A DNA stretch of 64,000 nt from an uncultured Fluviicola sp. (GTDB lineage: Bacteria; Bacteroidota; Bacteroidia; Flavobacteriales_D; Crocinitomicaceae): positions 1-64,000 of the forward strand of contig NZ_CABHOL010000022.1 in assembly GCF_902168135.1 (NCBI RefSeq), written 5' to 3'. The notes beneath the pieces were generated by a model. The model did not search any database. It was not told the origin of the DNA and saw only the letters and a program-made list of their open reading frames with translations. Of this stretch, positions 5,546 to 41,502 are shown piece by piece (the stretch's first letter is position 1; every line of letters begins with the position of its first letter). A program made the translations under genes and the position numbers.

Positions 5546-8500
5546 TTAATATTTAACGATTGTTTTAGTTAGTATTAATTGATTAGAATGATCCAATAAG
5601 TTTATAAAATAATACCCGCTTTCAATGAGAGAAAGATCCATCTCATAAGTCTCATTTTCATTGATTTCCATTGTTTGAATAATTTGCCCGTTTAATTGAA
5701 CGAGGGTGATTTTATAGTATTGCTTCTCTTTAGAGAATAAATGAACTCGTGTAAAGTCATTGGCTGGATTTGGATAGATATCCAACTGAACCAGTTCTTG
5801 AAACTCATCTAATCCTAAACATTCCTCGATGTTGATTGTAATGATTGTGTCAAGTTGGGCACAAATAGGGTTGTTTACAACTAACGTAAGTAAAAACGAA
5901 CCTGTTGTATCTGAAATCCAATTGAAATTGGAAGAATCCTGTGTTTCGAAATTTGATAAATTCCAATAATGATTTGTGCTGAATAATTCATTGTTTACTG
6001 AACCAACTATTACACTCCCAACACAGGAAGGGTTGGGTGAAAGGGTATACTCTATTTCAGTAGGACATTCAAATAGAGTATTGATAGTTTGGTTTGTCGT
6101 GATTTCAGGGTTGAAATCAAAAAAAATGTCGGCCTTGTTCAGAATTTGAGTACCATATGGCAAACCTTCGTTTAATTTAATGCGATAATTGATGAATCCA
6201 TGACTTCCAGGTTCGTCTGTTGTACTATCCGGTAAATGAATGTTGTCAAACAGAAAGCTAATTCGTCCATTTTGGTTCCCGTTGATTACAACTGGATGGC
6301 TGTTGCTTAAAGGGGTTAATGTCGACCAATCTAAATGTTGATCTAATTGGTCTATGATTTCTATTTTACTCGCAGTATCAGTTCCTGTATTTTGAAAATA
6401 AATCGTGTATTCCATCCAATCTGAATCTAGCGGAATATATCCGGGAGATTCAATTCCTGTTGGAGTAACTGTCTTGATATTTGGATCAAAAGCGCACGTA
6501 TGAATCGGCTGAACAGAATCTCGGGTAGTTAATAATTCAATTCCGGCAATAGGATCTATAATTGATACTGTTAATCGAGAGGTCATTGTATCACCCTGGA
6601 AACTATAATCAGGCATTAACGCCTGGACATGGATTACGTGGGAGTTAAAATAAAGAAGACTATCGTAATGCCAGTAAAGATGTTGACCTATAATCGAATC
6701 AGGAATGACATTGGAAGCCATATAGTTTACAGGAGTAGGTAATTCCAATTCAATAATTCCGGATGGGACGGTGGTCCCGACATTTTTGACCTTTATCCAA
6801 TAATTTGAAACAGTGTTGCATTCCGCAAGTCCGCCATTTAATGAGGCACTGATTTCATGCACGGTATCGTTCTGTGAAAAACCGAAATCCAGATTTGAGT
6901 AGTTTAGATTGAGTGAATCCAAGTAAAGGTGGTATTGAGCAGAATCTGTGGATAAACTCCAGTGAGGAATAGTGTTTGGTTGTATGAGATAAATTCCTGC
7001 TGAGTCAGTTAAGTGAAGGATATAATTTCCGTTGGCATAGGAAAAAGTGAAATCACTTTGAGGATTTGAGAAAACGAATACATCATTGATCCCAACATCT
7101 GTTGAATCAAATAATCCGTTCTGATTCAAATCTGCAAAGATTCGTCCGGATGAATTGGATTGATTGATAAAATTATTCTCGTAGAAGATGATTTTAGATC
7201 CTAAGTCATTAACAACGACAAAGACATCTTTATCTCCGTCATTATCTATATCCATAGGATAAGTAATGGATTGGAGGTGATTCCCGCCAATGGCTTGTAA
7301 CGGTCCGAAGTTTCCGGAGCCCGTATTTTCAGACCAAACCGTAAGCGTCGATCCATTGTAGGCAGAATATAGAATATCCAAATCACCATCCAAATCTAAA
7401 TCAACAGGAGTGATAGATCTTATGATAGAAGTAGGTTGAAGACTGATAACATGAGGGGAACTAAAGGTCAGATTCCCCAGATTTTCCAACCAGTTAATTT
7501 GAGAAGTGAAGCTGTTTCCAATCAAAATATCCAAGTCTGCATCTCCATCCAGGTCCGCTACTTCCATGCATGGGATTTGACCATTTAGAGTAACAAGATC
7601 TACACTTTGAGCGAATTGATTGCTCCCAAGATTGCGCAGCCAGGATATTTGGTTTGAACCAACCACGATGTCTTTGAGCCCATCGTTGTCCATATCTGAA
7701 ATTGCAATGGTTTTTACATTTGTTACATAATTTACCAATTGGGATGAGCCGAATACGCCGCCGCCTTGGTTTACAAATTTTCGGATCCAGCCTTCGTGTT
7801 CATGAGAAGTAATAATATCCAAATCACCGTCATTGTCCGAATCAACTAGTTCTGCATCAAATAGTTGGTTGTCTATCAGGCTTGCAGATGTAGGTTGAGA
7901 AAGCCCATGTACAGTAAATGTTTCATTGCCATTATTTTCCAACCAGTAGATAACAACCAGGTTGTTACCATTCGTATAGGAATGATAGGTTGAATAAGCC
8001 AGAATATCCGTATCACCATCATTATCGATATCACCCGCTCTTACAATAGGAGTACCACCTTCGTTAGAATAAGCAAATTGGCTGTAAAGTATTTTCTGAA
8101 AATCAAAAGTTCTGTCTCCTGTGTTCTTGAAATAGGATATTCTGCCATCGCTTGAACCACTTATTAAATCAGGTAAACCGTCATTATTTACATCAACTTC
8201 GCACAGACCTCCAACAGAAGCCAGCGAACCGGAAATTAACTTTTGAGGTTCAAAGGTCGTGTCTGCAATGTTTTTATAGTAAGCAAGTTTGTGGTCCAGA
8301 CTGCTTCCCGAAACAAAATCAGTATCACCATCATTGTCCAGATCGGCAAAATTCAGAGATAAATTACCTTGGGTCGAGGTTGTGATAGTAAATATATCTG
8401 TAAAATTACCGAGTGAATCCTTTCTTGTCCAATAGGAGCCTACATATCCCGTTGCTCCGAAAGTATTGATAGCCTGAGACCAGATCAAATCCTGATCACC

Positions 8501-9382
8501 GTCTGAATCCATGTCCCTGAATGCAACGTAAACACAGCCTGTAAAGCTGTTCTCTATGATTGTTGGGGCTGAGAAGGTACCGGAACCAGTATTGATGAAT
8601 TGTTTTATACCATCACCACATGCAATCAACAGATCCGGGTCCGAATCACTGTCAATATCGAAAGAGTTGATGTAGCGTGTAGCATATGCCTGATTTGAGA
8701 TAAGTTGTGGAGTAGAAAAAGTGATTCCTCCTTGATTAACCACTTTGGTTAGGTTCGTGTTATTACCAAAGCCATAAATGATATCCAAATCTAAATCTCC
8801 ATCAATATCAACGATATGCAATTTAGCAGCAAGACTGCTGCTTGTTGTGAATAAGTTTGTTGGACTATCGAATACCAGACTGCCTTGGTTTAATATCACT
8901 TTAACCAGACCAACGGATGAGATAACGATATCGGAAAAGCCATTGTTATCCAAATCTGTCAGGTATATTTCATTCAGATTGGATATACCTGTATTTATTA
9001 TTTGTTGTGGTCCGAAATCGCAAGATCCCAGATTTTCATAATAGGCAATTTTGTTATCATTACTCGATGCAGAAACCAGATCCATATCCCCATCATTATC
9101 CAAATCATCATATTTAAGGGAAACTGGTCCATCCACTCCAGCTGTAATTAAATGTCTTCCGGATGGTAAAAAAGTGGAGTTGCCAAAATTTTCAAATAAT
9201 ACGATTTCATCGGATATGAATGATGCAGAAGCGATATCCACATCGCCATCATTATCCAAATCCACACTTACAACTGAAGATATTCCCAGGGTAGAATGAG
9301 TGATGTCTTTTTCTACTCCAAATTGGGCAGAAGTATAGAAAGTGAACAGGATTTGAACTAGTAGGAACAATTTGATTTTCAT
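5546..9382 (-). CDS. Giant secreted VCBS/FG-GAP repeat protein with DUF11-like domain and T9SS sorting domain
   Basis: A 1278-aa secreted protein. The N-terminus MKIKLFLLVQILFTFYTSAQ is a signal peptide. Residues about 25-735 are a long run of VCBS/FG-GAP repeats built on DxDNDGDxD, which usually bind calcium and fold as beta-propellers. Next comes an SdrD-B-like segment (FADLNQNGLFDSTDVGIND), then DUF11/DUF7619-type sheets (YTIYFQNTGTDTASKI...NKADIFFDFNPEI) near residues 960-1110. A short Ig- or PKD-like stretch follows, and the final 80 residues (LDIYPNPANDFTRV...) are a type A T9SS sorting domain. It is probably a surface or released adhesion or binding protein; no catalytic motif is visible. 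The gene is single and its start lies 121 bp from the divergent htpG start at 9504. Its base composition is more AT-rich than the neighbours. Confidence 0.87.
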   Translation of the reverse strand: MKIKLFLLVQILFTFYTSAQFGVEKDITHSTLGISSVVSVDLDNDGDVDIASASFISDEIVLFENFGNSTFLPSGRHLITAGVDGPVSLKYDDLDNDGDMDLVSASSNDNKIAYYENLGSCDFGPQQIINTGISNLNEIYLTDLDNNGFSDIVISSVGLVKVILNQGSLVFDSPTNLFTTSSSLAAKLHIVDIDGDLDLDIIYGFGNNTNLTKVVNQGGITFSTPQLISNQAYATRYINSFDIDSDSDPDLLIACGDGIKQFINTGSGTFSAPTIIENSFTGCVYVAFRDMDSDGDQDLIWSQAINTFGATGYVGSYWTRKDSLGNFTDIFTITTSTQGNLSLNFADLDNDGDTDFVSGSSLDHKLAYYKNIADTTFEPQKLISGSLASVGGLCEVDVNNDGLPDLISGSSDGRISYFKNTGDRTFDFQKILYSQFAYSNEGGTPIVRAGDIDNDGDTDILAYSTYHSYTNGNNLVVIYWLENNGNETFTVHGLSQPTSASLIDNQLFDAELVDSDNDGDLDIITSHEHEGWIRKFVNQGGGVFGSSQLVNYVTNVKTIAISDMDNDGLKDIVVGSNQISWLRNLGSNQFAQSVDLVTLNGQIPCMEVADLDGDADLDILIGNSFTSQINWLENLGNLTFSSPHVISLQPTSIIRSITPVDLDLDGDLDILYSAYNGSTLTVWSENTGSGNFGPLQAIGGNHLQSITYPMDIDNDGDKDVFVVVNDLGSKIIFYENNFINQSNSSGRIFADLNQNGLFDSTDVGINDVFVFSNPQSDFTFSYANGNYILHLTDSAGIYLIQPNTIPHWSLSTDSAQYHLYLDSLNLNYSNLDFGFSQNDTVHEISASLNGGLAECNTVSNYWIKVKNVGTTVPSGIIELELPTPVNYMASNVIPDSIIGQHLYWHYDSLLYFNSHVIHVQALMPDYSFQGDTMTSRLTVSIIDPIAGIELLTTRDSVQPIHTCAFDPNIKTVTPTGIESPGYIPLDSDWMEYTIYFQNTGTDTASKIEIIDQLDQHLDWSTLTPLSNSHPVVINGNQNGRISFLFDNIHLPDSTTDEPGSHGFINYRIKLNEGLPYGTQILNKADIFFDFNPEITTNQTINTLFECPTEIEYTLSPNPSCVGSVIVGSVNNELFSTNHYWNLSNFETQDSSNFNWISDTTGSFLLTLVVNNPICAQLDTIITINIEECLGLDEFQELVQLDIYPNPANDFTRVHLFSKEKQYYKITLVQLNGQIIQTMEINENETYEMDLSLIESGYYFINLLDHSNQLILTKTIVKY

Positions 9383-9461
9383 GGTGGCGTTGTTTTGGGT
9401 AAAGTTAAAAAATATTTTTAATGGTCTTGTGAACAGCTGTCATTTTGTCATAAAATCTCAC

Positions 9462-9478
9462 TTGGCACAAACCTTGAC
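9462..9478 (+). promoter_or_regulatory. Sigma-54-like or heat-shock-like promoter of htpG
   Basis: TTGGCAC-AAACC-TTGAC sits 25 nt before the htpG ATG. It matches the -24 half (TGGCAC) and spacing of sigma-54 promoters, but the -12 half reads TTGAC where TTGCA/T is expected. No TAnnTTTG element is present near this gene, unlike most others in the window, so htpG probably uses a different promoter class. Confidence 0.4.
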
Positions 9479-9503
9479 AATACAAACCCAAATTTCAAAA
9501 AGT

Positions 9504-11393
9504 ATGAAAACAGGACAAATACATGTTTCAACGGAAAATATCTTTCCGATCATTAAAAAATTCTTGTATTCCGACCATGAGATTTTCTTACGTGAGTTGG
9601 TTTCAAATGCCGTAGATGCAAGTCAGAAATTGAAAGTGCTTGCTTCAACAGGTGAATATAAAGGAGAGTTGGGTGACCTGAAAGTGGAAGTACTTTTGGA
9701 TAAAGAAGCCAAAACACTAACAATCCGTGATAACGGAATCGGGATGACAGCCGATGAAATTGATAAATACATCAACCAAATTGCATTTTCCGGTGCGGAA
9801 GAGTTTGTAAAACAATACGAAGGAAAAGACGGGGCTGAAAGCATCATCGGGCACTTCGGTTTAGGATTCTATTCGGCATTTATGGTTGCTGAAAAAGTAC
9901 AGATCCGCACCTTGTCCCGTCATGAAGGCTCACAAGCAGTTCAATGGGAAAGTAACGGTTCTCCGGAATTTACTCTGTCTGAGATCGAAAAAGATACACG
10001 CGGAACAGATATCGTATTGTTTATCAATGAAGAATCCGTTGAGTTTTTGGAGAAATCGCGCATCCAGGGAATTTTGGATAAATACTGTAAATTCCTTCCG
10101 ATCCCGGTTTTCTTCGGTACAAAAGTAGAATACATCGACTCGCCGGAAGGGGAAAAAGACGAAGACGGAAAAGTAAAACGCGTTTCTGTAGACGTTCCGA
10201 ACCAGGTCAATAATCCGAAACCGGCATGGACTTCAGCTCCGGTCGATTTGAAAGAGGAAGATTACAACGCTTTCTACCGGGAATTATACCCGATGTCTTT
10301 CGAGGATCCATTGTTCCACATTCACCTGAATGTTGATTATCCGTTCAATTTAACGGGAATTCTATACTTCCCTAAGATTAAGGAAAATGTAGAGGTTCAG
10401 CGAAATAAGATCAATTTGTACTCCAACCAGGTGTTCATTACTGATTCGGTTGCGGAGATTGTTCCTGAATTTCTGACCCTGCTTCATGGTGTCATCGATT
10501 CACCGGATATTCCTTTGAACGTTTCCCGTTCATACCTTCAAAGTGACGGGAACGTGAAGAAAATCTCAGCACACATCACCAAAAAAGTAGCTGATAAGCT
10601 GGCAGAGATGTTCAAGAAAGACCGTGCGGATTTTGAAGCAAAATGGGACGATTTGAAGATCTTTGTGGAATATGGAATGCTGTCTGATGAAAAGTTTGCG
10701 GAAAAAGCAAAAAGCTTTGCCCTGATCAAAAATACAGATGGGAAGTACTTCACAATTGATGAGTTTAAAGAGCAGATAGCACCGCTTCAAACAGATAAGA
10801 ACGAAAAAGTAATCGCGCTTTATACACATAGCTCTGAGGAACATTTTTCCTTTGTGAAACAAGCTAAAGATCGTGGCTACCAGGTTGCAGTCATCGATGG
10901 ACCGTTAGCTCCTCACTGGATTTCAAAAATCGAACAAACCGTTGAGAATTTCAGTTTTGCACGTGTAGATGCGGACACTTTGGACCAATTGATCCAAAAA
11001 GAAGGTGAACTGCCTGCAAAATTGACAGAAGAACAGCAGTCGGTGTTGAAACCATTGTTTGAATCGGCTGTAGACCAACAAAAATTCAAAGTGGAATTCA
11101 AGTCTATGAGCGAATCCGACGCTCCGATTATTGTTACACAGCCGGAATTTATTCGAAGAATGATGGAACAGCAAAAATACGGAGGCGGAGGTTTCTTCGG
11201 AGCTTTCCCTGAAACATACAACCTGGTTGTGAACGCGAACCATCAGAAAGTAGAATCACTTTTGAATCTTTCGGACGACACCGAGAAATCGACCAAGGTA
11301 AAACAGCTTACAGATCTTGCTTTGCTTGCGCAGGGTATGCTGAAAGGAGAAGAATTAAATAAATTTATTGAGAGAAGCATCTCATTCGTATAA
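9504..11393 (+). CDS. htpG: Chaperone protein HtpG (Hsp90)
   Basis: ATP-dependent Hsp90-family chaperone, cytosolic and dimeric. The ORF opens at 9372, but the first 44 residues overlap the divergent gene and look non-coding; ATG 9504 (MKTGQIHVSTENIFPIIKKF) gives 629 aa, the family length. The GHKL ATPase domain shows the N-box ELVSNAVDAS, DNGIGM and GHFGLGFYSAF. The middle domain has the conserved PLNVSRSYLQSD. The C-terminal dimerisation part ends near SISFV. The usual acidic eukaryotic linker is short here (GEKDEDGKVK). A J-domain gene follows 54 bp downstream, which fits a shared role in protein folding. The promoter region is atypical for the window and may reflect heat-shock control. 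Confidence 0.97.
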   Translation: MKTGQIHVSTENIFPIIKKFLYSDHEIFLRELVSNAVDASQKLKVLASTGEYKGELGDLKVEVLLDKEAKTLTIRDNGIGMTADEIDKYINQIAFSGAEEFVKQYEGKDGAESIIGHFGLGFYSAFMVAEKVQIRTLSRHEGSQAVQWESNGSPEFTLSEIEKDTRGTDIVLFINEESVEFLEKSRIQGILDKYCKFLPIPVFFGTKVEYIDSPEGEKDEDGKVKRVSVDVPNQVNNPKPAWTSAPVDLKEEDYNAFYRELYPMSFEDPLFHIHLNVDYPFNLTGILYFPKIKENVEVQRNKINLYSNQVFITDSVAEIVPEFLTLLHGVIDSPDIPLNVSRSYLQSDGNVKKISAHITKKVADKLAEMFKKDRADFEAKWDDLKIFVEYGMLSDEKFAEKAKSFALIKNTDGKYFTIDEFKEQIAPLQTDKNEKVIALYTHSSEEHFSFVKQAKDRGYQVAVIDGPLAPHWISKIEQTVENFSFARVDADTLDQLIQKEGELPAKLTEEQQSVLKPLFESAVDQQKFKVEFKSMSESDAPIIVTQPEFIRRMMEQQKYGGGGFFGAFPETYNLVVNANHQKVESLLNLSDDTEKSTKVKQLTDLALLAQGMLKGEELNKFIERSISFV

Positions 11394-33323: not shown

Positions 33324-33474
33324 ACCAAAAACTGTTCCTAAGGGAGTGAATTATTGATGAGTGGTGTAAAATAGTTAACAGCTTGTTTAATATGGGTTTG
33401 ATTGATGGTTGACTAAGTGTATAACCTTAGTTGATTGTTAACAATTATGTAATGTAAGAATGAATTATTTGCCT

Positions 33475-33482
33475 TAACTTTG
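33475..33482 (+). promoter_or_regulatory. -7 element of the nucleic-acid scavenging operon
   Basis: TAACTTTG fits TAnnTTTG. Transcription would start near 33488, inside the perfect palindrome CGGAAATTTCCG (33486-33497). The leader to the ATG at 33703 would be about 215 nt. Confidence 0.6.
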
Positions 33483-33485
33483 CGT

Positions 33486-33702
33486 CGGAAATTTCCGGGT
33501 GTTCTCCTTGATGCTGTGATTTAATGCAGACTGAAACCATCTGGAAATACAATATTTGGTATAATGAAATAGAAATGAAACGCTTCCATAATAGCAAAGA
33601 CTTCTCCCGAAGTACTTGGTGTTATTTTCCGGCTGACAGGCCGGGTGGATTTGTTATACCTGGATACCGTACTTTATCTATAATTCAAATAATCAGTAAG
33701 TT
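33486..33702 (+). promoter_or_regulatory. Long structured 5' leader of the scavenging operon
   Basis: About 215 nt without a convincing gene. It begins with the palindrome CGGAAATTTCCG and later holds the hairpin ACTTC-TCCC-GAAGT (33600-33613) and a CCGG...CCGG stem (33629-33644). A 60-codon ORF (33524-33706) runs through it and stops on ATGA at the first gene. I could not match it to TPP, cobalamin, SAM or purine riboswitches. The part 33324-33474 shows no feature. Confidence 0.4.
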
Positions 33703-34749
33703 ATGAAAAAAGCATTACTATTTTTAGGGATGTTATCTTCTGTTGCGTATGCACAGGATTGCTCGAAAATCTTCATTTCAGAGTACGTTGAAGGTTGGTC
33801 AAATAATAAAGCATTGGAGATTTACAATCCAACGAACCAAAGTGTTGACTTAAGCCAGTATTTTGTGGCGCGTTATTCTAACGGATCTTCATCAGCTACA
33901 AATGCAAACGCAGTTCAGTTGAGCGGCAATATTGCGCCATATGGTGTTTTTGTTGCGGTATTGGATAAAAGAGATCCTAACGGAACAGGTCAGGAAGCAC
34001 CAATCTGGGATTCTTTGGAAGTGCGCGGAGATGGTTTCTTTAGCCCGGTATACAATACCAGTAATGCATTTTATTGGAATGGGAACGATGCTGTTTTGTT
34101 AGCGAAAGGAACATTGACAGGACCTTCTACCAATTCGATTACAACAGCAACTGGCTTCCAGATTGTTGATGTATTTGGAAAAATCGGTGAGAACCCTGCG
34201 AATGAAACAGGATCTTCTGCAAATAATGACGGAGCCTGGTCTTCAGGATTTCCTTACAATACAGGAGTTGGTGTTCAATTGACAAGTGATCATTCTTTGA
34301 TTCGTAAATCAACAGTTCTAAAAGGAGTAACAACGAACCCTACATTCTTCAACCCACTAGGTGAATGGGATTCTATTCCTGCAGTAACTTATGTATACGA
34401 TGAGAACGGGAACCCTATCTCAGGTGCAAATGGACCTATTTTGTTTGGTAACTGGTTCTCTTTGGGATCACATGATTGCGGTTGTAATCCGTTATCTGTT
34501 GGTGATCAAACGATCGAGGATGTATTGGTTTACCCGAATCCAACTAACGAAGGGGTGACTTTCATTAAGAATGCACAAGGAGTGAAAGAGGTAACAGTTG
34601 TAAACACATTGGGGCAGCACGTTAATCGTTTCTCAAACAATGCTTCTGCAGTTATGTCCGTAAATTTAGGATCTGATAAAGGAGTTTATTTACTTCGTAT
34701 CGTTCACGAGAACGGTTCAGTTTCAACGAAGAGGGTAATTTTTAAATAA
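33703..34749 (+). CDS. Lamin-tail-domain protein with T9SS sorting domain
   Basis: 348-aa secreted protein, first gene of the scavenging operon. It has a signal peptide (MKKALLFLGMLSSVAYAQ), then a lamin-tail (LTD) beta-sandwich at about residues 20-145. The core is IFISEYVEGWSNNKALEIYNPT with AVQLSGNIAPYGVFVAVL. The rest resembles other secreted LTD proteins found with extracellular nucleases. The C-terminus (DVLVYPNPTNEGVTF...STKRVIFK) is a type A sorting domain. LTD domains occur next to or fused with nucleases and may bind nucleic acid, which suits its position in front of a TonB receptor and an endonuclease. No catalytic residues are seen. Confidence 0.85.
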   Translation: MKKALLFLGMLSSVAYAQDCSKIFISEYVEGWSNNKALEIYNPTNQSVDLSQYFVARYSNGSSSATNANAVQLSGNIAPYGVFVAVLDKRDPNGTGQEAPIWDSLEVRGDGFFSPVYNTSNAFYWNGNDAVLLAKGTLTGPSTNSITTATGFQIVDVFGKIGENPANETGSSANNDGAWSSGFPYNTGVGVQLTSDHSLIRKSTVLKGVTTNPTFFNPLGEWDSIPAVTYVYDENGNPISGANGPILFGNWFSLGSHDCGCNPLSVGDQTIEDVLVYPNPTNEGVTFIKNAQGVKEVTVVNTLGQHVNRFSNNASAVMSVNLGSDKGVYLLRIVHENGSVSTKRVIFK

Positions 34750-34761
34750 TTATTTTATAAC

Positions 34762-34785
34762 AAGGTCGGATTTTTATCCGACCTT
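34762..34785 (+). terminator. Attenuator-like hairpin inside the operon
   Basis: AAGGTCGGA - TTTTTA - TCCGACCTT is a perfect 9-bp hairpin followed by ATTTATTTG, between the first two genes. The weak T tract suggests partial termination or a processing site, which would lower expression of the downstream genes relative to the LTD protein. Confidence 0.55.
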
Positions 34786-34800
34786 ATTTATTTGAAAAAT

Positions 34801-37518
34801 ATGTTGCGATTTATTACAACATTGGTCATACTATTCCCGATAGTTTGCTTTGCTCAAACATCGGTGGTAAGAGGAACCGTAAAAGATAAAGTATCAGAAG
34901 AGTATATTCCCGGAGCTTATGTCAGCCTGGGGACTTTCAAAGCTATTTCTGACGATAACGGAAATTATGAATTCAAAAACGTGCCTTACGGATCTTATAA
35001 ATTGACCGTTGGAGCATTTGATTTTGATACCCTTCAGTTAACAGTCGTTATTAAATCGGAGGAAACAGTCATTAATCCTGAATTGGGCGGAAGCACGGAA
35101 ATTGAAGAAATTCGTGTCATTGCAAATATTTCAATGGACCGTAAAACACCGATTGCTATTACCAAAATATCTGCCGAACAAATAGCCGAAGAATTGGGTT
35201 CCCGTGACCTTCCTATGCTTTTAAATGCTACACCCGGAGTCTATGCGACTCAAACAGGTGGTGGTGACGGTGATTCAAGGATTACTGTTCGTGGATTTGA
35301 TCAGCGAAATGTCGGTGTTTTGATTGACGGTGTTCCGGTGAATGATATGGAGAACGGAGCTGTATACTGGTCAAATTGGTTCGGATTGGATGCCATTACC
35401 AACCAGGTACAAATCCAGCGTGGATTGGGAGCTACTAAGCTTTCAATGCCTTCAGTGGGTGGATCCATGAATATTGTAACGAACGGAATGCACAATCGCA
35501 AAGGTTTCTCATTCAAACAAGAATACGGAACCGGAAACTTTTTGCGTACGTCACTTTCTTACAACTCCGGAAGAACCAAAAAAGGATGGGGATTCAACTT
35601 CTCAGGATCTTACAAACAAGGAGATGGCTGGGTGGAAGGAACCAATACGCAGGGTGCTTTCTATTACGGGAAAATTCAAAAGTTAATCAAGAAACATTTG
35701 GTAAGTTTATCAGCTTTCGGTGCTCCGCAAAAACACGGACAGCGTTCATTCTACCAACCGATCCAGTATTGGGATTCACAAACAGCAGCCGATTTAGGTG
35801 TTCCGATCAACCAAAACGCAATTATCGACAGAGGTATTCGTTTTAATCAACATTGGGGGTATATTACAAATGCTGATGGGGAGAAAGAACGTAAAAATGA
35901 GCGTTTAAATTACTACCATAAACCGCAAATCACTTTAAAGGATTTTTGGCAGGTGAATAAAAAATTGTCTATCTCCAATATCGGCTATATGTCTATCGGT
36001 AGAGGCGGAGGAACACGTTTGGCAAACTCTGCCGGAACACTTTACACCCAGGACGGACATGTAGATTGGGATGCAATTGTTCAGGCTAACCGGGTAGATC
36101 AATTATTTGGCGGACCAAATGTGGACCTTGCTTATTCACCTACGGAGTTAAAGTCTACTCAAGTTCAGATCGCATCGGTAAATAATCATTTCTGGTTAGG
36201 CTACTTGGGTCAGTTCCAGTACGAATTGAATACAAAATGGTCCGTTTCCGGAGGAATTGATTACCGCTATTACAAAGGAAGCCATTACCAGGAAATTACG
36301 GATCTTTTAGGTGGGGATTATTATGTAAATACAAGTAATTTCAATGATCCGAACCCGATGAAGCGCAAAGGAGATAAAATTGCACTGAACACTTACAACA
36401 ATGATCGTGATGGATTGGTACAGTGGGGTGGAGTTTTTGGTTCCGTGGAATACAGCGGGAACAGATGGACAGCCTTTTTAAATCTTTCCGGAGTAGTGAA
36501 TGCTTACAAAGGAGTTGATTATTTCCAGCGTAAAGTATTGGATTTGGGAGATACGGTTCTTAGAATCGGTGCGAACGATACGATTAATTACAATGGAAAT
36601 ACTTATACGGCATCTTCTCCGGGTCTGGAAGACTATGCTACTGATTGGAAAACAATTCCCGGAGGAACAATCAAAGGTGGTGTGAGCTATATTCTGAATG
36701 AAAATTCAAAACTGTTTGCCAATTTGGGTTATTTGTCCCGTACACCGCAGTTCAGCAATGTTATTGATAATAACACAAATACTTTCTTCCGTGAGATCAA
36801 GAATGAAATCATCCAGGCGGTTGAATTGGGTTATAGTTTCTCTAATAAGTATTTCGGAGTAAATGTAAACGGGTACTTTACCAATTGGAAAAATAAACCG
36901 TTCCCTTATGGTATTGCTATCCCTGATCCGAATGACCCAACTGCAAGTATTTATTTGAACATTAACGGAATGGATGCTATTCATTACGGGGGTGAGTTGG
37001 ATGTTGCTTACAACATCTTCAAAAACCTAACTGCCGAGGCAATGATATCTCTGGGTGATTGGACATGGAACTCTTCTGAGACTTTTTATGTGCCGGAATT
37101 GGATTATTCCTTTACATTTGATGCAAAAGGAGTACATGTAGGTGATGCAGCCCAGACAATGATGAATTTCAGTTTGAGATATGAACCGATCAAAAAATTG
37201 TACTTCAAGATTCAATACCAATGGTTTGACCGCTATTACGCAGCATTTAATCCGTTCTTTTTGCAGGGAGCAGATGCTAGAAGAGAAGCATGGAAATTAC
37301 CTTCTTATGGTTTAATGAATGGATTTGCAGGATATTCTGTGAATATCAAAAAAGTGAATGTTTTCTTCAATGCAATGGTCTCGAATATTTTGAACTCGAA
37401 ATTCATGGCGGATGCAACAGATAGTTATTATGCTCCAAACAATTCAGATGCTCAGTCCGCTTCAGTCGTATTTGGACAGGGGTTGAGATTTAACCTGACT
37501 TTGGGAGTTAATTTTTAA
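34801..37518 (+). CDS. TonB-dependent outer-membrane receptor
   Basis: 905-aa receptor for energised uptake across the outer membrane. After a signal peptide ending in CFAQ come a carboxypeptidase-regulatory-like domain (VVRGTVKDKVSEEYIPGAYVSL, about residues 20-100), a plug domain (ISAEQIAEELGSRDLPMLLNATPGVY... DSRITVRGFDQRNVGVLIDGVPV), and a 22-strand barrel ending in LRFNLTLGVNF with a terminal Phe. The track starts at a TTG (34792); ATG 34801 is three codons later and is taken here, though the longer form has a slightly better signal peptide. No SusD-like partner is present, so this is not a polysaccharide locus. The gene order suggests it imports products of nuclease or nucleotidase action, or a phosphate ester, but the ligand is not proven. 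Confidence 0.92.
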   Translation: MLRFITTLVILFPIVCFAQTSVVRGTVKDKVSEEYIPGAYVSLGTFKAISDDNGNYEFKNVPYGSYKLTVGAFDFDTLQLTVVIKSEETVINPELGGSTEIEEIRVIANISMDRKTPIAITKISAEQIAEELGSRDLPMLLNATPGVYATQTGGGDGDSRITVRGFDQRNVGVLIDGVPVNDMENGAVYWSNWFGLDAITNQVQIQRGLGATKLSMPSVGGSMNIVTNGMHNRKGFSFKQEYGTGNFLRTSLSYNSGRTKKGWGFNFSGSYKQGDGWVEGTNTQGAFYYGKIQKLIKKHLVSLSAFGAPQKHGQRSFYQPIQYWDSQTAADLGVPINQNAIIDRGIRFNQHWGYITNADGEKERKNERLNYYHKPQITLKDFWQVNKKLSISNIGYMSIGRGGGTRLANSAGTLYTQDGHVDWDAIVQANRVDQLFGGPNVDLAYSPTELKSTQVQIASVNNHFWLGYLGQFQYELNTKWSVSGGIDYRYYKGSHYQEITDLLGGDYYVNTSNFNDPNPMKRKGDKIALNTYNNDRDGLVQWGGVFGSVEYSGNRWTAFLNLSGVVNAYKGVDYFQRKVLDLGDTVLRIGANDTINYNGNTYTASSPGLEDYATDWKTIPGGTIKGGVSYILNENSKLFANLGYLSRTPQFSNVIDNNTNTFFREIKNEIIQAVELGYSFSNKYFGVNVNGYFTNWKNKPFPYGIAIPDPNDPTASIYLNINGMDAIHYGGELDVAYNIFKNLTAEAMISLGDWTWNSSETFYVPELDYSFTFDAKGVHVGDAAQTMMNFSLRYEPIKKLYFKIQYQWFDRYYAAFNPFFLQGADARREAWKLPSYGLMNGFAGYSVNIKKVNVFFNAMVSNILNSKFMADATDSYYAPNNSDAQSASVVFGQGLRFNLTLGVNF

Positions 37519-37536
37519 TACGGAAAAACAACAGCA

Positions 37537-39822
37537 ATGAATAAATTTTGGATGTTAGCTTGTGTATGTTTGGCTTCACTTTCTGTGAATGCTCAGGCGA
37601 CGATTGCAGATGCACGTAATTTTGCAATCGGACAAACAGTTACAATTAAAGGAGTTGTAACAAACGGTAGTGAGTTGGGACCGATTCGCTACGTGCAGGA
37701 TGGTACGGCAGCACTTCCTGCTTATGGTACAACTTTAAACAGCGTTCTTCGCGGAGATTCCATCACCGTAACCGGAACATTGTATGATTACAGCGGGTTA
37801 TTGGAAATTTCTCCTACGACCAGCTTTACGAATCACGGAGCGGTAACATTGCCGAACCCATTGCCGGTTCCGCTTTCAGCAATCAACGAAATGATCGAAT
37901 CCCAATTGGTTCGTGTGGATAACGTAACATTTACAACTACAGGGTCTTTTGCATCCGGTAACAGTACGGTACAGATTTCGGACGGAACAACAACTATGGA
38001 TGTTCGTATCAACGGAACTACTAATATTGATGGTACTGCTATTCCTACAGGACCTGTTTCAATCATCGCTTTGGTTGGTCAGTTCAACGCAAACTACCAG
38101 TTGGTTCCAAGAGCATTGAATGATATTTTTGCTTACGTACCTCCTGCTAAAGAAATCAATGTGACAATCGGCGGAACAACTTACCTTACAGGAAGCCAGT
38201 TTGCTGTTGGTACAACAGCTTCAACTACTGTAACAATTGAGAATACAGGTGCGGGTAACTTAACGGTTTCCGGTGCATCCTTTTCAGGAGCTAATGCAGC
38301 AGATTATTCTACAACTTTCACTAACGCAGTCATTGCAGGCGGAACTTCAAGTACACTTACTGTGAACTTCACTGCCGGTGGAACAGGATCTCGTTTGGGA
38401 GCTTTAACTATTGCTTCGGATGATTCGGATGAAAGTGCTTATGTAATTAACTTATATGGTATCGGTACGGATAACCTGGCTACTGAGCCTGCAGCAAATC
38501 CAACCAACCTTACATTCCCTACAAATAAGCCGTATACATTCAGCGGCTCTTTTACACCGAGTGCAAATACTGAAAACTACCTGGTTGTTTATACAAAGAA
38601 TGGTACACCGGTTTCCGGAGCTCCGGTTGACGGAACAACATATAAAAGAGGAGATGTTGTTGGAAACGGACAAGTTGCTTACGTAGGACCTGCAGTGAAT
38701 TTCTCACCACGCCACGTGATCGCTAATGAAACTTATAACATTGCTGTTTTCTCATTCAACGGTCCTGCAACATTTGAAAACTACAAGACAACTGCTCCGC
38801 TTACAGGAACGATTACTTCCCAGGGAGAGCAAATTGGTAATTACTACAATACAATCGATCACTCAAGCCCAACATTCCTGACTTCTTTGACTTCTTTGAT
38901 CAATCCGCATACTGTTATTTCATATACGAACTACAAATCAACAGTGATGGCTCAGTTTGAAGTGAGAGATACAACACTTGGAAGATCCTATGTGGTTTGT
39001 TCATATACGGGTGAGCGCAAGGTTTTTGACGATCCGTTCGATTGGACCGCTGTTGGATATTCCCGTGAGCACACGTATTCTCATTCCTGGATGCCAACTT
39101 ACCCGGCAGACGGAAATCCTGCTAAGCCTGAATATTCTGATCAGCACAATTTGTATCCTGTAAACCAAAATCAGGCAAACTCTCCAAGAAGTAATTTACC
39201 GATGAATGAAATTACCGGAAGCGTAGTATTCAATTACATGAACGGAAGCGTTGGTTACAATGGTTCACAATTGGTTTACGAACCAAGAGACGAGCAAAAA
39301 GGAAACGCGGCCAGAGCGATGTTTTACATGGCAACTGCTTATAACGGAATTTCCGGAAACAACTGGCAATTGCCAACCAACCAGGATCAGCAAATTTTGA
39401 AAACATGGCACAATGCCGATTTGCCGGATAATTATGAAATTGCTCGTAACGAGTACATCTTCTCGCAGCAGGGGAACAGAAACCCTTATGTAGACAGCGT
39501 TCATTTCACTTGTTATGTAAACTTCTCCAATATGTCTTATATCGCTGCAGGATGTGGTGATTTGGGAATCAACGAGCAATTATTGCAACAAAACTTAGTG
39601 GTGTTCCCGGTACCTGCTCAAACAGAAATGTTCGTACAAGTAAACGGAACACAAATCACAGATTATAAAATTGTTTCAATCTCAGGTCAGTTAATCGAAA
39701 ATAAGTCTAACTTAACAGCTGATGTATTGAAATTGAATACAACTGAATACAAAGCAGGAACTTATTTGATTGAAGTAGAGACTCCGTTCGGAAAAGCTAC
39801 GAAATCATTCATTATTGAATAA
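37537..39822 (+). CDS. T9SS-secreted endonuclease I family nuclease
   Basis: 761-aa extracellular nuclease. A signal peptide (MNKFWMLACVCLASLSVNAQ) precedes an OB-fold domain (about 20-200; IADARNFAIGQTVTIKGVV), a choice-of-anchor-D-like beta domain (about 205-310), and an FN3-like segment. The EndA/NucM nuclease domain spans about 430-680. It shows REHTYSHSW (about 509), DQHNLYPVNQNQANSPRSNLP split around residue 535, and the family motifs EQKGNAARAMFYMAT and QQGNRNPYVD. The end (VVFPVPAQTEMFVQV...ATKSFIIE) is a type A sorting domain. Family enzymes cut DNA and RNA non-specifically and need a divalent metal. It lies 18 bp after the TonB receptor and one base before the next gene, so it is clearly co-transcribed. 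Confidence 0.92.
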   Translation: MNKFWMLACVCLASLSVNAQATIADARNFAIGQTVTIKGVVTNGSELGPIRYVQDGTAALPAYGTTLNSVLRGDSITVTGTLYDYSGLLEISPTTSFTNHGAVTLPNPLPVPLSAINEMIESQLVRVDNVTFTTTGSFASGNSTVQISDGTTTMDVRINGTTNIDGTAIPTGPVSIIALVGQFNANYQLVPRALNDIFAYVPPAKEINVTIGGTTYLTGSQFAVGTTASTTVTIENTGAGNLTVSGASFSGANAADYSTTFTNAVIAGGTSSTLTVNFTAGGTGSRLGALTIASDDSDESAYVINLYGIGTDNLATEPAANPTNLTFPTNKPYTFSGSFTPSANTENYLVVYTKNGTPVSGAPVDGTTYKRGDVVGNGQVAYVGPAVNFSPRHVIANETYNIAVFSFNGPATFENYKTTAPLTGTITSQGEQIGNYYNTIDHSSPTFLTSLTSLINPHTVISYTNYKSTVMAQFEVRDTTLGRSYVVCSYTGERKVFDDPFDWTAVGYSREHTYSHSWMPTYPADGNPAKPEYSDQHNLYPVNQNQANSPRSNLPMNEITGSVVFNYMNGSVGYNGSQLVYEPRDEQKGNAARAMFYMATAYNGISGNNWQLPTNQDQQILKTWHNADLPDNYEIARNEYIFSQQGNRNPYVDSVHFTCYVNFSNMSYIAAGCGDLGINEQLLQQNLVVFPVPAQTEMFVQVNGTQITDYKIVSISGQLIENKSNLTADVLKLNTTEYKAGTYLIEVETPFGKATKSFIIE

Positions 39823-39823
39823 T

Positions 39824-40534
39824 ATGAAGAAACAAGTTTTTCTTTTTTTTCTAATAATAGGAGCAGGTCTTACGGCCTGCTCTTATCATTTACAGGTAAC
39901 AGGATCAAAACAGAATGTAGACGATTCAGGTAAGTCATCTGTCGAAATGGATTCTTTAATTGCGCCCTACAGAAGGGAAATGATGAAAGAATTCGGTCAG
40001 GTGATCGGTGAAGCTGAAACAGACCTGGTTACCGGGAGGCCGAATTCTACGCTGGGTTTTTGGTTGTGTGACAAATTGATCCAGCACGCAAAAGACAGTT
40101 CGTTTTTTCGAAATGAACCTGTCGTGGCATTTATCAATATCGGAGGTTTGAGAGCTGATCTTCCGAAAGGAAAAATCACAGTAGGAGATATTTACAAAGT
40201 TATGCCTTTTGATAACCGCATGGTGTTTTTAAAGCTTTCATTGGATAAGATCCCCGAAATGGAAGCTTATTTGAAGGAAAAAGGCGGGGAACCGATCGGC
40301 GGATTCAAACTGGAGAAAGGGAAATTGGTGTTTCCGGATAACCTGGCGAAAGAGAAAAATTATTTCTGGGTCGTTACTTCAGATTTTTTGGCGAACGGCG
40401 GCGATAATATGTTCTTCTTTAACAAACCTTTGCAGCGGTTTGATACGAACACCCTCTTCAGGGACTTCATTATCGAAGCTGTTAAAAAAGAGCAAAAAAT
40501 TGTATTTTATCCCGAAGAAAGAATAAATTGGTAA
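39824..40534 (+). CDS. 5'-nucleotidase C-terminal-domain lipoprotein
   Basis: 236-aa lipoprotein equal to the C-terminal substrate-binding domain of UshA-type 5'-nucleotidases. The signal peptide ends in the lipobox LTAC. Domain landmarks are NSTLGFWLCDKLI, VAFINIGGLRADLPKG and ITVGDIYKVMPFDN, with NYFWVVTSDFLANGGDNMFFF near the end. The metallophosphatase half is missing and is encoded by the next gene, one base away. The track starts at a TTG (39815) overlapping the nuclease stop; ATG 39824 is the better start. It likely binds the nucleoside or base part of nucleotides at a membrane surface. Confidence 0.88.
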   Translation: MKKQVFLFFLIIGAGLTACSYHLQVTGSKQNVDDSGKSSVEMDSLIAPYRREMMKEFGQVIGEAETDLVTGRPNSTLGFWLCDKLIQHAKDSSFFRNEPVVAFINIGGLRADLPKGKITVGDIYKVMPFDNRMVFLKLSLDKIPEMEAYLKEKGGEPIGGFKLEKGKLVFPDNLAKEKNYFWVVTSDFLANGGDNMFFFNKPLQRFDTNTLFRDFIIEAVKKEQKIVFYPEERINW

Positions 40535-40535
40535 G

Positions 40536-41453
40536 ATGGAAAGAAGATTATTTTTACAGCAAACAGGGGTGGTTGCAGGTGCTGCGATGGTTGCTCCTTC
40601 ACTGATCAGCGCAAAGAAAAAGCCCAACAAATTAGTGATCCTCCATACTAACGATACCCATTCCAATATTGATCCTTTCCCGGTTAATCATCCGAAATTT
40701 CCGAACATGGGTGGAGTTTCCAGAAGAGCCAGCCTGATCCAATCCATTCGCAACCAGGAAGAAAATGTACTGCTGCTCGATGCGGGGGATATTTTCCAGG
40801 GTACACCTTACTTCAACAAGTTTAAAGGAGTATTGGAAATGAAAACCATGGCAGCGATGAATTATGACATTGTGACGCTAGGTAATCACGATTTTGATAT
40901 TGGGATGGAAGCTTATAAAAGTGCTTTGTCGCATGCTTCTTTCCAGGTAGTAAACGCTAATTACGAATTGAGCTCAACTCCATTGGAAGAAGTTGTAAAA
41001 CCATATACCATCATCCGAAAAGCCGGATTTAAGATCGGTGTTTTTGGAGTTGGGGTAGATCTCCAGGGATTGGTGCCCAATGAGAACTGGAAAGGATTAA
41101 CTTACCAGGACCCCATTGCTGCAGCTCAAAAGCAAGCAGATGCTTTGCGTAAAGAGGGTTGTGATGTAGTGATTTGCTTGTCTCATTTGGGATACGAATA
41201 CAAAACAAACCAGGTTTCGGACAAAGTATTGGCAGCATCTACCCACGGCATCAATGTCATTATTGGCGGTCATACACATACATTCCTGGAAGATATGCAG
41301 GAATTCAAAAATAAAGAAGGAAAAGCGGTTTTTGTAAATCAGGTTGGTTACGGTGGTTTAAAGCTTGGCCGGATCGATATCGAATTATGCCCGGATTCGG
41401 GCAAATTCACCATTGCATCGATCAATCAGTTGCTGGACCAGGATATCGTTTAA
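40536..41453 (+). CDS. 5'-nucleotidase metallophosphatase-domain protein with twin-arginine-like signal
   Basis: 305-aa calcineurin-like metallophosphoesterase equal to the N-terminal catalytic half of UshA-type 5'-nucleotidase. The N-terminus MERRLFLQQTGVVAGAAMVA resembles a Tat signal. Metal-binding motifs are HTNDTHS, DAGD, GNHDFD, SHLGY and GGHTHTF, covering all ligands of the two-metal site. It begins one base after the C-terminal-domain gene. The two products probably act together to dephosphorylate extracellular or periplasmic nucleotides, releasing nucleoside and phosphate. It is the last gene of the operon, followed by a strong palindromic terminator. Confidence 0.9.
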   Translation: MERRLFLQQTGVVAGAAMVAPSLISAKKKPNKLVILHTNDTHSNIDPFPVNHPKFPNMGGVSRRASLIQSIRNQEENVLLLDAGDIFQGTPYFNKFKGVLEMKTMAAMNYDIVTLGNHDFDIGMEAYKSALSHASFQVVNANYELSSTPLEEVVKPYTIIRKAGFKIGVFGVGVDLQGLVPNENWKGLTYQDPIAAAQKQADALRKEGCDVVICLSHLGYEYKTNQVSDKVLAASTHGINVIIGGHTHTFLEDMQEFKNKEGKAVFVNQVGYGGLKLGRIDIELCPDSGKFTIASINQLLDQDIV

Positions 41454-41469
41454 AATAAAAGGATAATGT

Positions 41470-41502
41470 GTGGGCGCGCGATTAATCGCGCGCCCACGTT
41501 TT
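41470..41502 (+). terminator. Palindromic terminator/repeat ending the scavenging operon
   Basis: GTGGGCGCGCGATTAATCGCGCGCCCAC is a perfect 28-bp palindrome followed by GTTTT. It belongs with the CGCG-containing palindromes at 47190, 51770 and 60702. Confidence 0.8.

Follow-up and report, generated by a model that had tools for sequence, protein, structure and literature searches.

Results

The window, a stretch of 64,000 nucleotides from an uncultured Fluviicola sp. (assembly GCF_902168135.1, contig NZ_CABHOL010000022.1, positions 1 to 64,000), contains a locus of five genes that encodes a TonB-dependent receptor (TBDR), a predicted nuclease and other predicted surface or exported proteins. 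An initial annotation, made from the letters alone, had read it as a complete extracellular nucleic-acid scavenging operon with its own receptor type. Open reading frame (ORF) calls and a Pfam scan bore out the anatomy of that description, namely five co-directional genes in the given order, strand and domain content, separated by 1 to 51 bp (in gene order 51, 18, 1 and 1 bp). Lengths are given in amino acids (aa), and T9SS denotes the type IX secretion system.

33703..34749, + strand: gene for the lamin-tail domain (LTD) protein, 348 aa, with signal peptide, lamin-tail domain and T9SS C-terminal sorting domain (CTD), based on Pfam scan and model
34801..37518, + strand: TBDR gene, CarboxypepD_reg, plug and barrel, about 905 aa, type L clade
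37537..39822, + strand: gene for a T9SS-exported predicted nuclease, 761 aa, DUF5689, choice-of-anchor D, Endonuclease I and T9SS CTD
39824..40534, + strand: gene for the 5_nucleotid_C (substrate-binding) domain (5NC), a separate lipoprotein with the lipobox LTAC read from the sequence
40536..41453, + strand: gene for the 5'-nucleotidase catalytic (Metallophos) domain (5N), a separate protein with a Tat-like (twin-arginine) RRLFLQQ signal

The receptor carries PF13715 (CarboxypepD_reg) and PF07715 (plug) and has the fold of a TonB-dependent transporter (TBDT). Its ORF was called from a TTG at 34792; the ATG at 34801 agrees with the signal peptide and is very probably the true start. As the initial annotation had stated, no SusD partner accompanies the receptor: the Pfam scan found no SusD-family gene among the five genes and both flanking genes. 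The nuclease, the sole Endonuclease_1 and sole DUF5689 protein of the genome, scored 89.2 bits against Endonuclease I (PF04231, cut-off 25), retains the conserved core of that family and aligns with the Vibrio nuclease 1oup. Both nucleotidase halves match solved 5'-nucleotidases, with which the motifs HTNDTH, DAGD, GNHDFD, SHLGY and GGHTH align. The pair thus resembles a UshA-type 5'-nucleotidase in having both domains (Metallophos and 5_nucleotid_C) with conserved motifs, but differs in that it is split into two genes, with the C-terminal domain first and separate export signals.

Related loci were gathered by the receptor alone, so that neighbour counts are free of bias from neighbour selection, and counts are based on the 124 loci in which both neighbours were visible. 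The gene directly upstream of the receptor encodes an LTD T9SS protein in 120 of these, and the one directly downstream encodes a nuclease or DUF5689 protein in 119; both neighbours are kept in 115. The locus occurs in Crocinitomicaceae, other Flavobacteriales, Saprospiraceae, Bacteroidales, Marinilabiliales and Salinivirgaceae; among the relatives are Brumimicrobium aurantiacum (G019) and a member of Flavobacteriales UBA5869 (G002) whose receptor is 98% identical to that of the window. The first three genes (LTD, receptor, nuclease) are therefore a real conserved unit, beyond chance, in many genera and families. The 5'-nucleotidase pair, on the other hand, is almost restricted to Crocinitomicaceae loci and is an addition at family level. 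When gene order is compared across Bacteroidota, the proposed five-gene system thus holds for its LTD-receptor-nuclease part, while the nucleotidase pair is not widely kept.

Variants of the arrangement were seen as well. One Bacteroidales UBA5342 locus (L181) is expanded and encodes a 1104-aa LTD+DUF5689 protein followed by an LTD protein, the receptor and three consecutive Endonuclease I genes. In Marinilabiliales BM703 (L186), a type L receptor at 7001-9862 is followed by a 296-aa protein of DUF5689 and T9SS CTD; this locus has neither a nuclease domain nor an LTD protein and resembles the transformation-type pair discussed below. In the gut Bacteroidaceae member Phocaeicola massiliensis (OY726028.1, L278:8001-12348), a related receptor of 32% identity is followed by a DUF5017 lipoprotein, with no nuclease in view. 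Receptors of about 820 aa with 25-31% identity were set aside as another family, with no DUF5689 or nuclease neighbours recognisable by the profiles used.

The third position of the unit is variable in content. Some loci carry an Endonuclease I there and others a phospholipase-D (PLD-type) domain with two HKD motifs, and DUF5689 is sometimes swapped for another N-terminal domain. Because unrelated nuclease types interchange beside an unchanged LTD-receptor pair, the comparison of sequences provides strong evidence that this pair would serve nucleic acids.

Co-divergence was analysed in 47 Crocinitomicaceae loci, using partial correlations that remove two control genes and 2000 permutations. 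LTD and receptor distances correlated at 0.915 (partial 0.909), a value reached by 0 of the 2000 permutations, compared with partial correlations of 0.38 for receptor and nuclease, 0.42 for LTD and nuclease, and 0.003 for receptor and 5NC. Alignment to close relatives showed exchange of whole cassettes: in the comparison with G007 and G012, DNA similarity is continuous as far as 33833, near the beginning of the LTD gene, and is recovered at the stop of the nuclease gene, the entire LTD-receptor-nuclease block being replaced, whereas in that with G001 and G008 it is interrupted from the start of the nuclease gene until close to its stop, only the nuclease being replaced. Flanks of swapped cassettes are 77-83% identical. 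Sharp-edged swaps span 33833-39820 against L044 and L046 and 37560-39824 against L032 and L033. Receptor-targeting phages or bacteriocins are a possible selective force behind such swaps. Since LTD and receptor move together, the LTD protein is the best candidate for a surface partner of the receptor. Its structure model (predicted local distance difference test, pLDDT, 91.8) matches the lamin Ig-like fold and a T9SS CTD, and it has no lipobox. Taken together, the sequence comparisons suggest that the LTD protein may act as the surface partner of the receptor in the stead of SusD.

A second, related receptor clade, termed type C, was identified. Types L and C each form one clade with support of 100/100, with the window receptor in type L and not in type C, and a split of moderate support (93/85) separates the two from generic receptors. 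A DUF5689 protein follows the type C receptor in 28 of 30 loci, a count partly due to selection as many of these loci were found via DUF5689. A trait outside this selection is a nuclease at most four genes away, usually an Exo_endo_phos_3 gene, which was likewise found in 28 of 30. Four Crocinitomicaceae type C loci adjoin the same kind of 5NC-5N pair as in the window. By annotation, a run on the Aureibacter plasmid pAT2 comprises a carboxypeptidase-regulatory-like protein, two DUF5689 proteins, an endonuclease and two endonuclease/exonuclease/phosphatase genes.

In a set of 155 Crocinitomicaceae genomes with a completeness of at least 90%, 121 carry type L, 20 type C, 14 neither and none both. 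Co-occurrence was expected in 15.6 genomes (hypergeometric 1.9e-16, with genomes counted regardless of phylogeny). The genera g31, g32 and g35 each contain both types. Hence the type C system replaces the type L system.

Several additional features frame and divide the locus.

33434..33445, no strand assigned: operator-like palindrome ATTGTTAACAAT with core TGTTAACA
33475..33482, + strand: predicted promoter -7 box TAACTTTG of the Bacteroidota type TAnnTTTG
33484..33563, + strand: structured leader RNA R1, P1 arms at about 33492-33501 and 33538-33547, based on covariation and a covariance model
34762..34785, + strand: internal terminator-like hairpin at the junction of LTD and receptor genes, based on folding and comparison with related loci
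41470..41497, no strand assigned: terminal hairpin with 12 bp stem and TTAA loop, possibly bidirectional

In contrast to the single strong terminator at the end that had been proposed, two such elements were found. The terminal hairpin has a folding energy of -26.7 kcal/mol, and the strong internal hairpin one of -15.7 kcal/mol (z -5.4). The latter is conserved, a hairpin with a T-run being present at the LTD-receptor junction in 63 of 120 loci but between receptor and nuclease in 3 of 119, and it further qualifies the idea of one complete five-gene system. Given its position directly 3' of the LTD gene, it probably causes partial termination, by which the LTD protein would be made in excess over the receptor.

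In each of the 14 genus members that were compared, the promoter box TAACTTTG aligned at 216-231 nt upstream of the LTD start. In many Crocinitomicaceae loci, the box is preceded by the TGTTAACA core at a distance of 39 bp. The palindrome is contained in a motif, ATTGTTAACAATTATGTAATG (33434-33454), which stands just 5' of the promoter with the same fixed 39-bp spacing in many loci and is a possible dedicated activator site. A role of the operator as a shared regulon site was dismissed, as one match was found in the genome, no more than for its control. An upstream ORF of 60 codons (33524-33706) overlaps the LTD start codon (ATGA). Upstream ORFs of similar length ending near the LTD start were seen in 36 of 102 loci, mostly Crocinitomicaceae, and their peptide is not conserved.

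The operon mRNA would start with R1, which the initial annotation had overlooked. Its conserved core consists of UGUUCUCCUUGAUG ... CUGAAACC. The P1 helix is 93% paired across 32 leaders with compensatory change in all nine pairs, and the structure as a whole scored 0.70 for covariation, compared with 0.27 for shuffled alignments and at most 0.21 when slid. The covariance model matches the window R1 with 72.9 bits and also matches upstream of orthologues outside its training set. Comparison with Rfam gave no credible match, short stretches included. R1, which is nearly restricted to Crocinitomicaceae, is a candidate new cis-regulatory RNA. The same genome contains a second site (G000:C54:44152-44228; L283:5153-5229), and most second sites lie directly ahead of genes for other T9SS-exported surface proteins (CHU_C, SprB repeats, PKD, LTD). 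As these proteins have no evident nucleic-acid role, a nucleotide riboswitch was rejected as first choice for R1.

Discussion

Linkage of LTD, receptor and nuclease, exchange of nuclease types, co-divergence of LTD and receptor, and replacement by a type C system that adjoins nucleases and, in four genomes, the same nucleotidase pair all strengthen the idea of nucleic-acid scavenging with its own receptor type, and we consider it likely that the locus is a TonB-dependent nucleic-acid scavenging system. From its domains, the T9SS-exported DUF5689-Endonuclease I protein would be a cell-surface enzyme that cuts extracellular DNA and/or RNA. The LTD protein, held at the surface by way of T9SS, may capture fragments or form a lid with the receptor in the position that SusD generally occupies, as co-divergence and anatomy suggest, and the receptor would take nucleic-acid fragments across the outer membrane using TonB energy. 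In Crocinitomicaceae, the split 5'-nucleotidase, with a Tat-exported catalytic and a lipid-anchored substrate-binding domain, would then dephosphorylate nucleotides, probably in the periplasm, to yield phosphate and nucleoside.

Some results weigh against this interpretation. The receptor model (pLDDT 85.5) shows the general TBDT fold, by which the substrate is not decided, and a single-sequence search of the PDB gave no match. LTD and nuclease proteins are both acidic overall (pI 5.0 and 4.8). No CNT nucleoside transporter (PF07662) was found in the genome itself, other transporter types not having been searched. Further, a profile of the receptor compared with solved structures returned general TBDTs only, the best being the siderophore receptor XusA, which works with a surface lipoprotein, XusB, and four related receptors outside types L and C have no adjoining nuclease. 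The last two points would suit a receptor for an unrelated ligand such as an iron-chelate or vitamin, with the neighbours present by regulation or chance. This we regard as very unlikely, given that both neighbours are kept in 115 of 124 loci over several orders and that unrelated nucleases alternate at one place. The locus could also be an extracellular nuclease operon for turnover of matrix or biofilm DNA or for defence, in which the LTD protein would be an adhesin with no part in transport and the receptor would import only small products (for example nucleotides, nucleosides or phosphate-rich pieces). LTD and nuclease are indeed both T9SS surface proteins, LTD domains are found in secreted nucleases such as ExeM and the 5'-nucleotidases suit the use of small products; the LTD protein, however, follows the receptor far more closely than the nuclease (partial correlations of 0.91 and 0.42), and we judge this alternative improbable.

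Another explanation draws on natural transformation. Riemerella anatipestifer cannot be naturally transformed without the outer-membrane protein RA0C_RS04915, which contains CarboxypepD_reg, or without the adjacent RA0C_RS04920, composed of DUF5689 and DUF5017 (PMC8459023). Its transformation also drops when tonBA is lost, with no accompanying iron defect (PMC8383284). RS04915 as a DNA channel is the speculative model of those authors (PMC8459023), and an outer-membrane route for transforming DNA in Bacteroidota has so far only been proposed (PMC8459023). The window locus could accordingly be mainly an outer-membrane DNA-uptake apparatus for transformation, or serve transformation and nutrition, with the receptor passing long DNA and the nuclease trimming surface DNA. 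It shares with the Riemerella pair a CarboxypepD_reg outer-membrane protein beside a DUF5689 protein, and type C, the related replacer of the window system, has the same architecture including a DUF5689+DUF5017 partner, usually with a nuclease nearby. However, the likeness of the Riemerella pair to type C is one of architecture and annotation and not of sequence, the window receptor falls in the separate type L clade, and it has an LTD partner and a DUF5689 fused to Endonuclease I instead of a separate nuclease-free DUF5689+DUF5017 protein. ComEC is present in the genome but is near-universal and thus uninformative as a competence marker. The nuclease and 5'-nucleotidases of the window fit feeding better, and we consider this explanation, whether for transformation mainly or for transformation and nutrition together, unlikely.

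Nucleic-acid scavenging can be compared with known uptake systems. SusCD glycan loci and PusCD phosphate utilisation systems (PUS) likewise place a TBDR beside surface and periplasmic degrading enzymes, periplasmic phosphoesterases in the case of PUS loci (PMC8115612). The window receptor has the CarboxypepD_reg and plug domains of SusCD-type systems, whereas instead of an adjoining SusD-like lipoprotein a T9SS LTD protein is present (120 of 124 loci), and there is no carbohydrate-active enzyme (CAZyme). The locus therefore belongs neither to the SusCD family, as it has no SusD, nor, being of a separate clade, to the type C transformation pairs. In the receptor-lid pairs BtuB-BtuG (PMC10404256) and XusA-XusB, a TBDT has a dedicated non-SusD surface partner. 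A partner that evolves with its receptor, as in receptor-lid systems, was found here as well (LTD-receptor partial r 0.909), although the candidate, an LTD protein sorted by T9SS, is no lipoprotein, and the complex is only proposed. Flavobacterium johnsoniae EndA1 and EndA2 (Fjoh_4721, Fjoh_4723), induced by phosphate depletion, also bring LTD and Endonuclease I together in surface nucleases (PMC8115612), but as one fused protein listed among orphan genes, whereas in the window separate LTD and nuclease genes flank the receptor.

In our judgement, the locus behaves as a nucleic-acid utilization locus would, and its proposed receptor partner, a T9SS lamin-tail protein, is of a new kind. In marine sediments, much turnover of extracellular DNA is attributed to Bacteroidota (PMC8289736), and our literature search found no paper on a receptor importing nucleic-acid pieces across the outer membrane; the locus thus represents a widespread and testable candidate for such a receptor and possibly belongs to a family of DNA importers. 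The replacement of type L by type C offers a natural experiment with two related systems. More tentatively, and with the odds somewhat against it, both types may belong together as a single family of TonB-dependent nucleic-acid transporters found throughout Bacteroidota, in which nutritional versions work with nucleases and nucleotidases while a nuclease-free version supplies DNA for transformation. If true, a single receptor family would explain how DNA passes through the Bacteroidota outer membrane and would tie the eating of DNA to its uptake.

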